Source of the DNA: Sphingomonas flavalba
GTDB lineage: Bacteria > Pseudomonadota > Alphaproteobacteria > Sphingomonadales > Sphingomonadaceae
Assembly: GCF_004796535.1 (NCBI RefSeq)
Contig: NZ_SPHY01000003.1
Coordinates: forward strand, 248,001 to 312,000
Direction of reading: 5' to 3'
DNA length: 64,000 bases
Shown here: piece after piece, positions 4,136 through 32,743 of the stretch
How the letters are laid out: each line of letters begins with the position of its first letter
How positions within the stretch are numbered: the stretch's first letter is position 1
Translations under genes and position numbers: made by a program
The notes under the pieces: generated by a model
The model's database searches: none
Seen by the model: only the letters and a program-made list of their open reading frames with translations
Told to the model about the DNA's origin: nothing

Positions 4136-5206
4136 GTGCCGATCGACCGTCTCGCCCTCACCGATTTCCGCTCCTACGCCGACGCGCTGATCGCGCCGGG
4201 CCCCGGCATGGTCGTGCTGACCGGGGAGAATGGTGCCGGCAAGACCAACATATTGGAGGCGGTATCGCTGCTCGCCCCAGGGCGCGGGATGCGTGGCGCA
4301 ACGCTTGGTGAGATGGCGCACAGCGAGGGCGCCGGTGGCTTCGCGGTCGCCGCGCGGGTCAGCGGGACGGAGATCGGCACCGGCACGCTCGCCGCCCAGC
4401 CGGAACGCCGGCTGGTGCGGATCAACGGCGCTCCAGCGGCGGCGGCGGCGCTTGGCGAATGGCTCTCGATCCTGTGGCTGACCCCGGCGATGGACCGGCT
4501 GTTCTCCGAAGCGGCGGGCGGGCGCCGGCGCTTTCTCGACCGGCTGGCGCTGGCGCTGGTGCCGGACCATGCCGGGCATGCCACCCGCTACGACGCGGCG
4601 ATGCGGGCGCGCAACAAGCTGCTCGCCACCGATGCTGCACCGGACGCCGCCTGGCTGAGCGCGCTGGAGGCACGCATGGCTGAACATGGCTCCGCGCTCG
4701 GCGCCGCGCGTGCACTGGTAACGGCGGCACTCGGCGAGCGGCTGGCGGCGGCGCCGGAAGGGCCGTTCGCCCGCGCCGGACTGGCGCTCGCCGGCTGGGA
4801 CGATACCGATCCCGGCGCGTTCGCCGCCGCCCTCGCCGCCGGGCGCGGGCGGGACGCCGCGGCCGGGCGGACGCTGGTCGGGCCACACCGCGCCGACCTG
4901 ATCGTCACCCATCTCGGCAAGGGGCAGCCGGCGGCACGCTGTTCGACCGGCGAGCAGAAGGCGCTACTACTCGGCATCGTCCTCGCCCATGCCGATCTGG
5001 TGGCGGAACGCGCCGGGCGGCGGCCGGTGCTGCTGCTCGACGAGGTCGCGGCGCATCTCGACCCGGCGCGGCGGGCGGCGCTGTTCACCCGGCTGGCCGA
5101 CGGCGGCGGCCAGGTGTGGATGACCGGCACGGAGGCATCGCTGTTCGCCGGCATCGGCGCCGCCACCCTGTTGAGCGTCGCCGACGGCCGGGTGAGCGGC
5201 CGCTGA
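4136..5206 (+). CDS. recF: DNA replication and repair protein RecF
   Basis: SMC-like ATPase that helps load RecA at gaps through RecFOR. 356 residues. N-terminal [14 protein letters not shown], Walker [10 protein letters not shown] at about residue 30, signature region [18 protein letters not shown] and Walker [14 protein letters not shown] near residue 300. The chosen start is a GTG (4136), where homologues begin just before the LxxFRSY motif. Close to dnaN, as in many bacteria, although an opposing gene separates them. No unusual features. Confidence 0.95.
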
Positions 5207-25451: not shown

Positions 25452-26370
25452 TCCCCCAGAGCGTCGAACGGTGGCGCTTATCGCGGGGCCGACGGCCAGC
25501 GGCAAGTCGGCACTTGCGCTGGCGCTGGCCGAGCGGCTGCCGTCGGTGATCGTCAACGCCGATTCGGCGCAGGTCTACGCCGACCTGGCGGTGCTGTCGG
25601 CGCGGCCCGACGCCGTCGAGACCGCGCGGGCGCCGCACCGGCTGTTCGGCCATGTCGACGGGGCCGAGGCCTGTTCGGCCGCGCGCTGGGCGGCGGAGGC
25701 GCGGGCGGCGATCGCCGAAGCATGGCGTGACGAGCGCGTGCCGATCCTGGTCGGCGGCACCGGGCTGTACCTGCGTACCCTGCTCGACGGCATCGCGCCG
25801 GTGCCGGAGATCGACCCGGCGGTGCGCCGCGCGGTGCGGGCGCTGCCGGTTGCCGAGGCCCATCGCGCGCTGGCCGCCGAGGACCCGGCGGCGGCTGCAC
25901 GGCTTGCCGCCGCCGACACCAGCCGCGTCGCCCGCGCGCTGGAGGTGGTGCGATCGACCGGGCGGACGCTGGCCGACTGGCAGAGCGAGCGGGTCGGCGG
26001 CATCGGCGATGCGATCCGGCTGGTGCCGACGCTGCTGCTGCCGCCGCGCGACTGGTTGTTCGAATGCTGCGACCGGCGGTTCGAGGCGATGATGGCGGGC
26101 GGCGCGGTGGAGGAGGTGGAGCGGCTGCGCGCCAGGCGGCTGGACCCGGCGCTGCCGGTGATGCGGGCGATCGGCGTGCGCGAGATCGCCGGCTGGCTGG
26201 ATGGAACCCACGACCGCGCCGCCGCGATCGCCACCGCCCAGGCGGCGACCCGGCGCTATGCCAAGCGCCAATATACCTGGTTCAACCACCAGCCGCCGGC
26301 CGAATGGCCGCGTACGGCGCAAGCGGATTCCGCCCTTATTGGGAAAATTGAAACAATGTTGCTGTCATAG
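25438..26370 (+). CDS. miaA: tRNA dimethylallyltransferase
   Basis: 310 residues. Transfers dimethylallyl to A37 of tRNAs that read UNN codons. P-loop [18 protein letters not shown] near residue 14, then [25 protein letters not shown], and the C-terminal [16 protein letters not shown] motif typical of MiaA. The ATG at 25438 overlaps the divergent serB start; the next in-frame alternative is a GTG at 25471. The stop is about 97 bases before ilvB. Confidence 0.95.
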
Positions 26371-26466
26371 TGGTTGACATGCCATATTATTACCAATAGG
26401 GCGCGCGCTTGCGTTTGCCGGCCGGCGACGCGAGAAGCTGAACCCAGCGATTCTTGGGAAATGGTG

Positions 26467-28214
26467 ATGACACGCGAACGCAGCGGTGCGGACATATTGG
26501 TTGAAGCCCTGACCGATCTGGGCGTCGAAGTGATCTTCGGCTACCCGGGCGGCGCGGTGCTTCCGATTTATGACGCACTGTTCAAGCAGAAGCGGATCCG
26601 CCACGTCCTCGTCCGCCACGAGCAGGGCGCCGCCCATGCCGCCGAGGGTTATGCCCGCGCGACCGGCAAGCCCGGCGTCGTCCTCGTCACCTCCGGCCCC
26701 GGTGCGACCAACGCCGTCACCGGCATCACCGACGCGCTGATGGATTCGATCCCGATCGTCGTGCTGACCGGGCAGGTGCCGACGACGCTGATCGGCACCG
26801 ACGCGTTCCAGGAGGCCGACACGATCGGCATCACCCGGCACGTCACCAAGCACAACTACCTGGTGCGCGACCCCGCAAAGCTGGGCGACGTGATCCACGA
26901 GGCGTTCTACATCGCCACCGCCGGCCGGCCCGGCCCGGTCGTCGTCGACATCCCGAAGGACGTGCAGGTGGCGAGCGCGCCCTACCGCAAGCCCGGCGTC
27001 ATCGAGCACAAGACCTACCGCCCCCGGCTGAAGGCCGACGCGGCAGAGATCGAGGCGATCGTCGACATGCTGGCGGCGGCGGAGCGGCCGATCCTTTACA
27101 CCGGCGGCGGCATCATCAACGCCGGGCCGGGCGCCAGCCAGTTACTGCGCGAGCTGGCGCGGATCAGCGGCGCACCGGTCACCTCCACGCTGATGGGGCT
27201 GGGCGCGTTGCCGGCATCGTCGCCGCAGTGGCTGGGCATGCTGGGCATGCACGGCACCTACGAAGCCAACATGGCGATGCACGGCTGCGACCTGATGCTG
27301 TGCCTGGGCGCCCGTTTCGACGACCGGGTGACCGGGCGGCTCGACGCGTTCAGCCCGGGCAGCCGCAAGATCCACGTCGACATCGACCGGTCGTCGATCA
27401 ACAAGAATGTCCGCGTCGACCTGGCCGTCGTCGGCGACGTCGGGCTGGTGCTGGAGGACATGGTCCGCGTCTGGAAGGCGCGCCAGCACCCGAAGCCGGA
27501 CCTGGCCGCCTGGTGGAAGCGGATCGAAGGCTGGCGGGCGAAGAAGAGCCTGGCCTTCCCGGCGTCGAAACAGGAGATCATGCCGCAGCAGGCGATCCGC
27601 GCGCTGTGGCGGGCGACGCACGCGCTGAACCCGATCATCACCACCGAGGTCGGCCAGCACCAGATGTGGGCGGCCCAGCATTTCGGCTTCGAGGCGCCGA
27701 ACAAATGGCTGACCTCCGGCGGGCTCGGCACGATGGGCTACGGCCTGCCCGCCGCGATCGGCGCGCAGGTCGGCAACCCCAACGCGCTGGTCATCGACAT
27801 CGCCGGCGAGGCGTCGATCCAGATGAACATCCAGGAGCTGGGCACCGCGACGCAGTACCGGCTGCCGGTCAAGCTGTTCATCCTCAACAACGAATATATG
27901 GGCATGGTCCGCCAGTGGCAGGACCTGACCTATGGCGGCCGCTATTCGGAAAGCTACAGCGAATCGCTGCCCGATTTCGTCAAGTTGGCCGAGGCCTATG
28001 GCTGGACCGGGCTGCGCATCGAGAAGCCGGCGGAGCTGGAGGACGGCATAGCCCGGATGCTGGAAACCGACGGGCCGGTGCTGGTCGACTGCCGGGTCGC
28101 CAAGCTGGCCAACTGCTTCCCGATGATCCCGTCGGGGGCGGCCCATACCGAGATGCTCCTCGACCAGGCGGAGGTGTCCGGCGAGATGGGCGACGAGGCG
28201 AAAGCACTGGTGTG

Positions 28215-30245: not shown

Positions 30246-30857
30246 ATGCGCCTTGTTCCCTTCGCCCTGCCGCTGCTGCTCGCCACCGTCACCGCGACCG
30301 CGCAGGCGCCGATGCCGGTTTCCGGCACCGCCGACCCGAGCCGCGTCGCCGCCGGCACCTATCAGGCCGACAGCGCCCACACCCAGATCGCCTGGTCGGT
30401 CAACCATCTGGGCTTCAACGCCTTTCACGGCCTGATCGGCGGCGCGACCGGCACGCTGACCATCGATCCGGCGCGACTGGCCGACGCCACCGTGTCGATC
30501 ACCATTCCGATCGCCGGCGTGGTGACGACCAGCGCCGCGCTCGACAAGCATCTGCTGTCGCCGGATTTTTTCGACGCCGCCAATTTCCCAACCGCGACAT
30601 TCAAGTCGACGAGCGTGGCGGTGGACGGCACCCGCGCGACGATCACCGGCTCGCTGACCCTGCGCGGGGTGACCCGCCCGGTGACGCTCGACGCGCGCTT
30701 CGTCGGCGCCGGGCCGAACCCGATGTCGAAGGCGGCGACCGTCGGCTTCGAGGCGACGACGACGATCAGGCGCAGCGATTTCGGCATAAGTTTCGGTGTG
30801 CCGGCGGTGTCCGACGCCGTGCCGCTGGCGATCACCGTTGCGTTCGAGAAGGCGTAG
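30246..30857 (+). CDS. YceI-family periplasmic protein
   Basis: 203 residues. Signal peptide MRLVPFALPLLLATVTATAQA, then the lipocalin-like YceI beta-barrel: YQADSAHTQIAWSVNHLGFNAFHG, a hallmark start, FDAANFPTATFKSTSV, and GSLTLRGVTRPVTLDARF. YceI proteins bind isoprenoid or long-chain lipids in the periplasm; exact ligand unknown. It is probably independently transcribed since a terminator precedes it. Confidence 0.92.
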   Translation: MRLVPFALPLLLATVTATAQAPMPVSGTADPSRVAAGTYQADSAHTQIAWSVNHLGFNAFHGLIGGATGTLTIDPARLADATVSITIPIAGVVTTSAALDKHLLSPDFFDAANFPTATFKSTSVAVDGTRATITGSLTLRGVTRPVTLDARFVGAGPNPMSKAATVGFEATTTIRRSDFGISFGVPAVSDAVPLAITVAFEKA

Positions 30858-30920
30858 CGGCCAGCCCGGCCGCCAAGAAAGGGATGGACTTTGCGGCGGC
30901 AGCCGGGCTATCGCGCAGCC

Positions 30921-30968
30921 ATGCAGTCGCTCGGCGGCCTTTTCCTGCTTCGACTTACACGCCCTTAG
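30921..30968 (+). CDS. leader peptide of leuA (putative LeuL)
   Basis: A 15-residue frame MQSLGGLFLLRLTRP, with leucine at positions 4, 7, 9, 10 and 12. It uses CTC, CTT and CTG codons and ends in TAG 108 bases before leuA. Its stop codon lies in the loop of a hairpin that competes with a longer-range stem, the arrangement expected of a transcription-attenuation leader. No strong Shine-Dalgarno sequence is obvious. Translation is inferred from composition and position. Confidence 0.65.
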   Translation: MQSLGGLFLLRLTRP

Positions 30969-31018
30969 GCGTGTTCCCCGTCGCGCGCCCGGTCCGGGCT
31001 GCGCACCGCGCCTAAGGG
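30957..31018 (+). promoter_or_regulatory. leucine attenuator-like structure upstream of leuA
   Basis: Hairpin 1: ACACGCC (30957-30963) with GGCGTGT (30968-30974). A competing stem pairs CCCTTAGGCG (30962-30971) with CGCCTAAGGG (31009-31018). Both use the same bases, so they exclude each other. Inside the long stem sits a GC-rich hairpin (30983-31004). A ribosome stalled on the leader leucine codons would decide between them. No T tract is seen, so termination could be Rho-dependent or the control translational. Confidence 0.6.
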
Positions 31019-31075
31019 TTCAGCATCTTCAAGCCAGACGGGCATAGCCCCGCCGCTGATTCCGAAAGCCGCATC

Positions 31076-32743
31076 ATGATTGCCGATCCTTCGACCAAAT
31101 ACCGAGCGTTCCCGCAGGTGCCGATCGCCGACCGCCAATGGCCGTCGCGCACCATCACCCGCGCGCCGCGCTGGCTGTCCACCGACATGCGCGACGGCAA
31201 CCAGGCGCTGATCGACCCGATGGACAGCGAGAAGAAGCAGCGCTTCTTCGACCTGCTCGTCCGCGTCGGCGTGAAGGAGATCGAGGTCGGCTTCCCGTCC
31301 GCCGGGGCGACCGAGTTCGACTATATCAGCGGCCTCGTCCGGTCCGGCCGCATCCCCGACGACGTGACCGTCCAGGTGCTGACCCAGTCGCGCCGCGACC
31401 TGATCGAGAAAAGCTTCGAGAGCCTGGAGGGCGCGCGGCGCGCGATCGTCCACCTCTACAACGCGGTGTCGCCGGCGTGGCGGCGGATCGTGTTCCAGAT
31501 GGACCGCGCCGAGGTACGCCAGATCGCGGTCGACGGCGCCAAGATTCTGCGCGACGAGGCGGCGAAGCGGCCGGACACCGACTGGCATTTCGAATATAGC
31601 CCGGAAACCTTCTCCACCGCCGAGCTGGATTTCTCGGTCGAGGTCTGCGCGGCGGTGATGGACGTGCTGCGCCCGACGCCGGACCACCCGCTGATCCTGA
31701 ACCTGCCGGCCACCGTCGAGGCGGCAACGCCCAACATCTATGCCGACCAGATCGAATGGTTCGGCCGCAACATCCCCAACCGCGACAGCGTCGTCATCAG
31801 CCTGCACCCGCACAACGACCGCGGCACCGGCGTCGCCGCCGCCGAGCTGGGCCTGATGGCCGGCGCCGACCGGGTCGAGGGCTGCCTGTTCGGCAATGGC
31901 GAGCGCACCGGCAACGTCGACCTGGTGACGCTGGGCCTGAACCTCTACACTCAGGGCGTCGACCCGAAGCTGGACTTTTCCGACATCGATTCGGTGATCC
32001 AGACGGTCGAATATTGCAACGCCCTGCCCGTCCACCCGCGCCACCCCTATGCCGGCGAACTGGTGTTCACCGCCTTTTCCGGCAGCCATCAGGACGCGAT
32101 CAAGAAGGGCTTCGCCGCGCAGGAGCAGCGCAACGACGATTATTGGGAAGTGCCCTACCTGCCGATCGACCCGGCCGATCTCGGCCGCAGCTACGAGGCG
32201 GTGATCCGCGTCAATTCGCAATCCGGCAAGGGCGGCGTCGCCTGGGTGCTGGAACAGGACAAGGGGTTGAAGCTGCCCAAGCGGCTGCAGGCCGATTTCA
32301 GCCGCCACGTCCAGCAACTGGCCGACGACAACGGCCGCGAGCTGGACGCCGGCGACATCTGGTCGCTGTTCGAGCAGACCTACCGCCTGTCCGGCGAGCA
32401 GCGTTTCACCCTCGACGCCTATGACGAAAGCCGGGCGCCCAACGGCGACCGCATCTTCGCCGGGCATATCGGCGTCGACGGCGCGCTGCGCTCGGTCGGC
32501 GGACGCGGCAACGGCCTGATCTCCAGCGTGCTCGCCGCGCTGAACAGCGGCTGCGGTGTCGACCTCGACGTCGCCGACTATAGCGAGCACGCGATCGGCA
32601 AGGGCGCCGGGGTGCACGCCGCCGCCTATGTCGAATGCCGAACGCCCGACGGCCGCAGCGTCTGGGGCGTCGGCATCGACCTCGACGTCGCCACCGCCTC
32701 CGTCCGCGCCGTGCTGAGCGCGGTCAACCGGTTGAACAGCTGA
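31076..32743 (+). CDS. leuA: 2-isopropylmalate synthase
   Basis: 555 residues. First committed step of leucine synthesis, acetyl-CoA plus 2-ketoisovalerate. DmpG/HMGL-like barrel: [15 protein letters not shown] (metal Asp), [18 protein letters not shown] (metal His) and [18 protein letters not shown]-terminal LeuA regulatory domain binds leucine for feedback control. The length and the [21 protein letters not shown] start resemble the longer actinobacterial/fungal LeuA type. ATG 31076 chosen as first in-frame Met. A leader peptide and hairpins lie upstream. The 3' end overlaps the glycerate kinase gene by 20 bases. Confidence 0.96.

Follow-up and report, generated by a model that had tools for sequence, protein, structure and literature searches.

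The window, that is, the whole 64-kb stretch of DNA analysed here, carries ilvB, ilvH, ilvC, a YceI-like gene and leuA in the same direction. The YceI-like gene, which lies between ilvC and leuA (30246–30857), matches PRK03757 with 132.7 bits, below the cut-off of 232; a similar peptide end is found ahead of the leader also in three relatives (L005, L030, L054). For ilvB, a promoter-like TTGACA is seen at about 26373; when positions 26060–26520 were read by eye, without computation, no leader ORF was evident ahead of the gene, in contrast to the ilvB leaders reported for other Alphaproteobacteria. The features of leuA and of the region in front of it are collected in Table 1.

Table 1. Features of leuA and its upstream region, in window coordinates.
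Feature	Position	Strand	Basis or remark
leuA, 2-isopropylmalate synthase, type 2 (proposed controlled gene)	31076–32743	+	TIGR00970, 815.8 bits against a cut-off of 697.4; start ATG at 31076
Leader ORF MQSLGGLFLLRLTRP-stop, 15 codons, five Leu	30921–30968	+	ATG at 30921, TAG at 30966–30968
CGACTTA, with the putative control codon CTT at 30954–30956	30951–30957	+	In 82 of 82 sphingomonad-type upstream regions; commonest 7-mer there
7-bp hairpin ACACGCC-CTTA-GGCGTGT, possible transient or pause hairpin	30957–30974 (30957–30963 with 30968–30974)	+	Sequence and relatives
Long-range stem, 5′ strand CCCTTAGGCG, contains the stop codon	30962–30971	+	Covariation in relatives
Long-range stem, 3′ strand CGCCTAAGGG	31009–31018	+	Covariation in relatives
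GC-rich hairpin within the loop of the long stem	30983–31004	+	Minimum-free-energy folds
Spacer from the stem to the leuA start region, 15 C against 10 G	31020–31061	+	Base composition
Promoter-like pair TGGACT (30885–30890) and TATCGC (30909–30914), spacing 18	30885–30914	+	Weak match, 7 of 12 positions

The original prediction described a 15-codon frame with five leucines ahead of leuA, and this frame is seen in the sequence. It further described a 7-bp hairpin and a 10-bp long-range stem of which only one can form, and here too the coordinates agree: the two overlap in shared bases and are therefore mutually exclusive. In the folding model, the long stem is dominant, with a mean pairing probability of 0.999 against 0.001 for the 7-bp hairpin. 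The leader region is more stable than its dinucleotide shuffles (z = −2.40; 3 of 200 shuffles were equal or better). It should be noted that CGACTTA, being a short word, is not enriched in the window by count (one occurrence against 1.49 expected); its importance follows from its position and conservation. The exact sphingomonad form of the leader occurs in one copy in its own genome.

Upstream regions for comparison were chosen by LeuA similarity alone and not by the leader. The relatives from named genomes were the best 80 of 591 loci, so this sample leans to close relatives; further regions came from 193 genomes of the class Alphaproteobacteria. The sphingomonad-type set consists of 82 regions, including the window and L082–L084, with the Tistlia (L053) and Brevundimonas (L064) loci moved to the other type-2 regions. 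One region (L015), whose gene start had been set too far upstream, was dropped, leaving 81 sphingomonad-type leaders. The type-1 set consists of 71 LeuA-like regions picked by E-value only; LeuA of types 1 and 2 are only about 25–31% identical. One record titled Arthrobacter sp. TPD3018 (L023) has a LeuA 79% identical to that of the window and a sphingomonad-type leader, so that the organism name of this record is probably wrong.

CGACTTA, invariably present in the sphingomonad-type set, occurs on the antisense strand in 2 of the 82 regions. An in-frame upstream start codon exists in 81 of the 81 leaders, and 25% of the codons before CGACTTA are Leu in this frame, compared with 5% and 3% in the two alternative frames; over the three groups, the Leu fraction is 0.25, 0.17, and 0.27 in the leader frame and 0.03–0.10 in other frames. 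Stems were aligned in 38 of the 81 leaders, hand-picked as about one per cluster. Covariation of the long stem was scored on 11 pairs, namely the 10-bp core and one more; 93.5% of the cells are paired, both sides have changed at 7 of the 11 pairs, and the score of 0.280 exceeds that of shuffles (0.166) and of slid controls (at most 0.132). For the 7-bp hairpin, 73.7% of the cells are paired, both sides have changed at 2 of 7 pairs, and the score is 0.133 against 0.081 in shuffles, with one slid control reaching 0.104. Thus, of the two predicted structures, the long stem is well conserved and the short hairpin less so. The loop of the long stem varies between relatives in length and sequence.

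The stop codon had been placed in the loop of the 7-bp hairpin, which is nearly exact: its T and A lie in the loop, while its G is the first base of the 3′ arm. The placement itself is not conserved. Counted from the start of CGA, the stop is 15 nt away in 61 of 81 sphingomonad-type leaders and 21–24 nt away in the other 20, so its position in the loop is not essential. In the Sphingopyxis loci, the stop comes two codons later and the stem is maintained by matched changes, indicating that the stem is more important than where the stop falls. Overall, the comparison that had been proposed as a test, conservation among relatives, gave a kept frame, kept Leu codons and a kept long stem with compensatory changes. 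The observation of a leader with its stem is real and beyond chance, and the pattern of conservation supports a layout of the kind expected for ribosome-controlled attenuation.

The start of the RNA was predicted for part of the leaders. Within 60 nt upstream of the leader start, TGGAC is present in 50 of 81 sphingomonad-type leaders; in 49 of these 50, the +1 position predicted at fixed spacing falls within 5 nt of a start codon, the best of several starts being allowed; 59 permuted words gave an average of 1.3 in the same test. The predicted RNA start at or next to the leader ATG suggests that the ORF is leaderless or nearly so.

Both codons of the conserved word are rare in the genes of the window, where CUU accounts for 6.8% of Leu codons and CGA for 4.3% of Arg codons. 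Among the other Leu codons of the leaders, the share of CUU is 43% in the sphingomonad type, 44% in type 1 and 29% in the other type-2 leaders. The Salmonella leu leader, with its CUA codons, is an earlier example of rare control codons, as given in the accessible part of PMC1183508. The distance from the codon to the stem varies little in three of the four groups: counted from the first base of CUU, the 5′ arm starts 7–8 nt downstream in 75 of 81 sphingomonad-type, 30 of 35 type-1 and 18 of 18 CTN-CTTA leaders, and in 21 of 38 other type-2 leaders.

A ribosome was assumed to cover the RNA between 15 nt upstream and 12 nt downstream of the first base of the A-site codon. With this footprint imposed on the folding model, the pairing of the window stem, 0.999 in the free RNA, falls to 0.49 once the control CUU occupies the A site; with the Leu codon before CGA there it remains at 0.998, and with the next Leu codon upstream at 0.997. 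In the model, CUU is thus the only one of the three Leu codons tested at which a waiting ribosome disturbs the stem. With the stop codon in the A site, the modelled pairing is 0.0; a ribosome at the stop masks the stem even more fully, so the off state would need prompt release. We can also suppose that, with CGA in the P site, the reading of CUU may depend unusually strongly on the leucyl-tRNA supply.

The original prediction was concerned with sphingomonads, where the element is indeed present, but it also stands before both LeuA types in other Alphaproteobacteria. CGACTTA lies upstream of the other type-2 LeuA in 41 of 57 regions and of type-1 LeuA-like genes in 38 of 71, with one antisense occurrence in each set. 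In the Tistlia and Brevundimonas loci, the word is present and the stem is different. Most type-1 leaders have the form CGACTTA-N4-CCCCTGA...TCAGGGG, and one type-1 leader (L144) ends in RLTRP-stop, identical to the end in the window. CGACTTA was not found in 33 of 71 type-1 and 16 of 57 other type-2 regions; in about 18 of these (15 type 1, 3 type 2), CTTA and a stem were judged to be retained, CGA being replaced by a Leu codon, and in the rest they were not.

Because a search by the stem alone leaves the count of control codons free of selection for CGACTTA, we identified type-1 leaders in this way, in 48 of 71 regions. The control codon is CUU in 45 of the 48 and CUA in 3, never CUG or CUC. 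This codon is followed by A in 47 leaders and by T in 1, and preceded by CGA in 31, by a Leu codon CTN in 15 and by GGC in 2. The three leaders with CUA are L161, L183, and L189, and CUA is also the control codon of Salmonella leu.

The pattern of the type-1 form with CTTA, applied without gene information, matched 62 of 387 alphaproteobacterial genomes, with one copy each among the matches listed, and the reversed pattern gave 6 matches by our count. In a phylum-wide draw, 33 of 397 genomes matched, 28 of them Alphaproteobacteria; the 5 matches outside the class are at about the level of the reversed pattern there (3), and their sequences look unrelated. The start of LeuA (DTT[LM]RDGEQ) was found 73–191 nt downstream in 39 of 39 loci fetched from the two lists of matches.

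Two CGACTT sites occur in 15 of the 57 other type-2 regions (L085, L092, L096, L103, L107, L108, L109, L116, L118, L129, L130, L133, L135, L136, L137), each with a stem above the score threshold, a count made without a shuffle control. Each member of a tandem has CGACTTA or CGACTTC and its own stem, and the upstream stem is usually a compact CCCGG...CCGGG hairpin; the tandems are possibly two attenuators in series. The leader peptides of three further loci (L141, L169, L184) end in LRLRCP-stop and so contain Arg-Leu-Arg, a motif linked to drug-induced ribosome stalling in the accessible text of PMC8632094.

These data point to a leucine-responsive, ribosome-controlled attenuator without an intrinsic terminator in front of leuA, a reading which we consider probable on the conservation and the folding model. 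The sequence shows a small Leu-rich ORF with its end inside the 5′ strand of a covarying stem, and one rare CUU that precedes this strand by 7–8 nt. Under leucine shortage, the ribosome would wait at CUU, where it is predicted to mask about half of the stem, the stem could not close and leuA would be expressed. A ribosome held at the Leu codon just before CGA would, according to the model, leave the stem intact. When leucine is ample, the ribosome would reach the stop and leave, the stem would close and leuA would be turned down.

It is quite possible, and we put it forward tentatively, that the element is a class-wide and so far undescribed leucine switch of Alphaproteobacteria that senses one codon. 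Such a switch would comprise a single near-invariant CUU (rarely CUA), mostly after the rare CGA and followed by A, at about the reach of a ribosome from a stem that holds or adjoins the leader stop; it would act without a terminator, be found ahead of two LeuA types with little identity to each other and be doubled in some lineages.

The output step is the least certain part of the mechanism. The missing T tract noted in the original prediction turned out to be general: the 8 nt after the 3′ arm contain on average 1.8 T in 77 sphingomonad-type leaders, and five or more T occur in only 2 of 77 sphingomonad-type, 2 of 38 other type-2 and 4 of 35 type-1 leaders (the sets used for T tracts and spacer composition). 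As T is scarce after the stem in all groups, we reject intrinsic termination. With the U-run generally absent, the Rho-dependent or translational output suggested by the original prediction are the apt alternatives.

One possibility, which the statistics of the relatives favour and to which we give tentative preference, is that the closed leader would act mainly by hindering ribosome binding at leuA, Rho-dependent termination being a rival or a partner. In type 1, the CGACUUA region pairs with the spacer at −18.1 kcal/mol, against −13.4 kcal/mol for shuffled spacers (p = 2 × 10−8) and −14.0 kcal/mol for the spacers of other species (p = 2 × 10−5). Pairing of the Leu-codon region with the spacer is weak in the CTN-CTTA leaders (p = 0.03; 0.15 against other spacers) and in sphingomonad representatives (p = 0.007 against shuffles; 0.06 against foreign spacers), and there is no effect in the other type-2 leaders (p = 0.54). 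In the window, all 100 shuffles pair at least as well (p = 1.0). After filters for score, length and spacer, the spacer-pairing test included 36 type-1, 38 other type-2 and 81 sphingomonad-type leaders; the comparison of pairing between groups included 34 type-1, 15 CTN-CTTA and 30 other type-2 leaders and 37 sphingomonad representatives.

The accessibility of the leuA start region was modelled in two ways. Its mean unpaired probability (37 type-1, 38 other type-2 and 81 sphingomonad-type leaders) shows no effect of stalling in type 1 or in the other type-2 leaders and a small effect in the sphingomonad type (p = 0.02). The second measure, the cost of opening this region (36, 33, and 81 leaders, respectively), was adopted after that result had been seen, so its p-values are to be read with caution; its figures come from thermodynamic modelling in which the ribosome footprint was assumed and held constant. 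When the ribosome stalls, the modelled cost falls by 2.0 kcal/mol in type 1 and 1.9 kcal/mol in the sphingomonad type, against 0.1 and −0.4 in shuffled controls, and the drop is not clear in the other type-2 leaders (0.7 against 0.4 shuffled). Counted by cluster, it is 1.94 kcal/mol against 0.17 for shuffled spacers in type 1 (33 clusters) and 1.34 against −0.41 kcal/mol in the sphingomonad type (38 clusters), exceeding 2 kcal/mol in 14 of the 33 and 13 of the 38 clusters. The window RNA runs opposite to the trend of its group: its opening cost rises on stalling from 14.3 to 16.6 kcal/mol.

This fold of the window, which gives blocked initiation no support, fits better with the main rival. Here, a leader read to its stop would expose a naked C-rich spacer, or the stem would cause a pause, and Rho would end transcription before or early in leuA unless a stall at CUU prevented it. 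The absent T tract agrees with such a mechanism, as does the composition of the spacers, which are richer in C than in G in 72 of 77 sphingomonad-type, 32 of 38 other type-2 and 24 of 35 type-1 leaders; among other upstream regions of the window, this holds for 17 of 30. A G-poor stretch, however, is equally expected of an unstructured ribosome-binding region. Moreover, with a stalled ribosome a larger part of the RNA behind the polymerase would be unpaired; this should favour Rho, and the direction of control then requires an extra assumption. We regard Rho as a possible but somewhat doubtful output. For the leader family, we lean to translation over Rho, though not for this genome; an output step other than these two seems unlikely.

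The remaining rivals replace the reading of leucine codons by something else. TnaC is known for tryptophan-dependent stalling of the terminating ribosome, and a conserved C-terminus R-L-x-x-P-stop could by analogy stall the terminating ribosome in a leucine-dependent manner; the usual stop distance of 15 nt, found also in 32 of 37 type-1 leaders, does give this ending in most cases. But the stop is shifted in the 20 sphingomonad-type leaders mentioned above, Arg is replaced by Leu or Gly in the 17 stem-identified type-1 leaders without CGA while CUU or CUA stays, and CGA and CUU are conserved even at synonymous positions, to which a peptide is indifferent. With stops shifted and Arg and Leu exchanged, we consider nascent-peptide arrest improbable. 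More improbable still is an RNA element bound by a ligand or protein, with CGACUUA as the recognition sequence and the ORF incidental: a seven-base unpaired stretch is indeed kept in distantly related genomes, but its bases match the codon phase of a Leu-rich ORF, the codon preceding CUU is not fixed, being an Arg or a Leu codon in 46 of 48 type-1 leaders, and no Rfam family fits the leader. A programmed +1 frameshift at CUU-A, by which the ribosome would pass through the stem, is hardly credible and was rejected, since the +1 frame, although open for a median of 25–33 codons past CUU, does not consistently have the lowest stop density (type 1, 0.022 against 0.034 and 0.047; CTN-CTTA, 0.027 against 0.024 and 0.021; sphingomonad type, 0.027 against 0.022 and 0.040; other type-2, 0.028 against 0.041 and 0.020).

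A search of the window with Rfam 15 gave only a tRNA at gathering score and one match below threshold (30815–30882, E = 0.76); in eight relatives, it gave two sub-threshold miRNA matches, both in L053 at 4190–4256, away from the leader. A known family (T-box, riboswitch, or known leader) was therefore rejected. We found no account of a leuA leader in Alphaproteobacteria in the literature searched, which covered few subscription papers.

A close functional parallel is the leu attenuator of Salmonella and E. coli (leuL), which, in the accessible parts of PMC6123439 and PMC1183508, likewise has a leader peptide with rare Leu control codons and mutually exclusive structures before leuA. Its control codon is CUA, whereas here it is CUU and rarely CUA. 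Unlike leuL as described there, the leader studied here has no U-run terminator, is short, has its stop in the stem and one fixed control codon, and gives no Rfam match. Of the marks of a leu/trp-type attenuator, a leader ORF with Leu codons and exclusive structures are found, the masking being seen in the folding model alone, and a hairpin with a U-run is absent.

The actinobacterial LEU element is also a terminator-less leader with Leu codons in an ORF before leuA, according to the accessible text of PMC1262725, and the type-1 relatives resemble it in pairing the Leu-codon region with the spacer before leuA. In the same text, a base stem of the LEU element joins the run of Leu codons to the Shine–Dalgarno box of leuA, a pseudoknot is conserved, and mutation evidence against control by Leu codons is cited. 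The window, in contrast to the LEU element as described there, shows no such base stem. Since the leader also lacks a hairpin with a U-run, an Rfam match and, in the literature searched, a published account, it appears to be a new form of ribosome-controlled attenuation.

If this is true, leucine synthesis in many Alphaproteobacteria would be governed by one shared unannotated leader, which searches keyed to terminators would miss because it has no U-run. The leader would offer a clean test case for regulation by a stalled ribosome without an intrinsic terminator and for why one synonymous codon persists across divergent genomes, and it would give annotators a specific signature for small leader ORFs.

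Within the Alphaproteobacteria, an ilvB/ilvIH leader has reportedly been described by Vitreschak et al. (2004); it is said to be also a branched-chain amino-acid leader, from the same bacterial class as the leuA leader. The accessible part of PMC1273637 cites that work only for the ilvB leader peptide. The trpL leader of Sinorhizobium meliloti, with its 14-residue peptide peTrpL, is a leaderless small ORF according to the accessible text of PMC10117765, as the sphingomonad leuA leader is predicted to be or nearly so; it differs in controlling trpE and sensing tryptophan. Finally, uORFC-8-2 upstream of cysS in Rhodobacterales is likewise proposed, in the accessible text of PMC8632094, to be a ribosome-mediated attenuator and comes from the same bacterial class, with cysteine codons, cysS as its gene and another structure.
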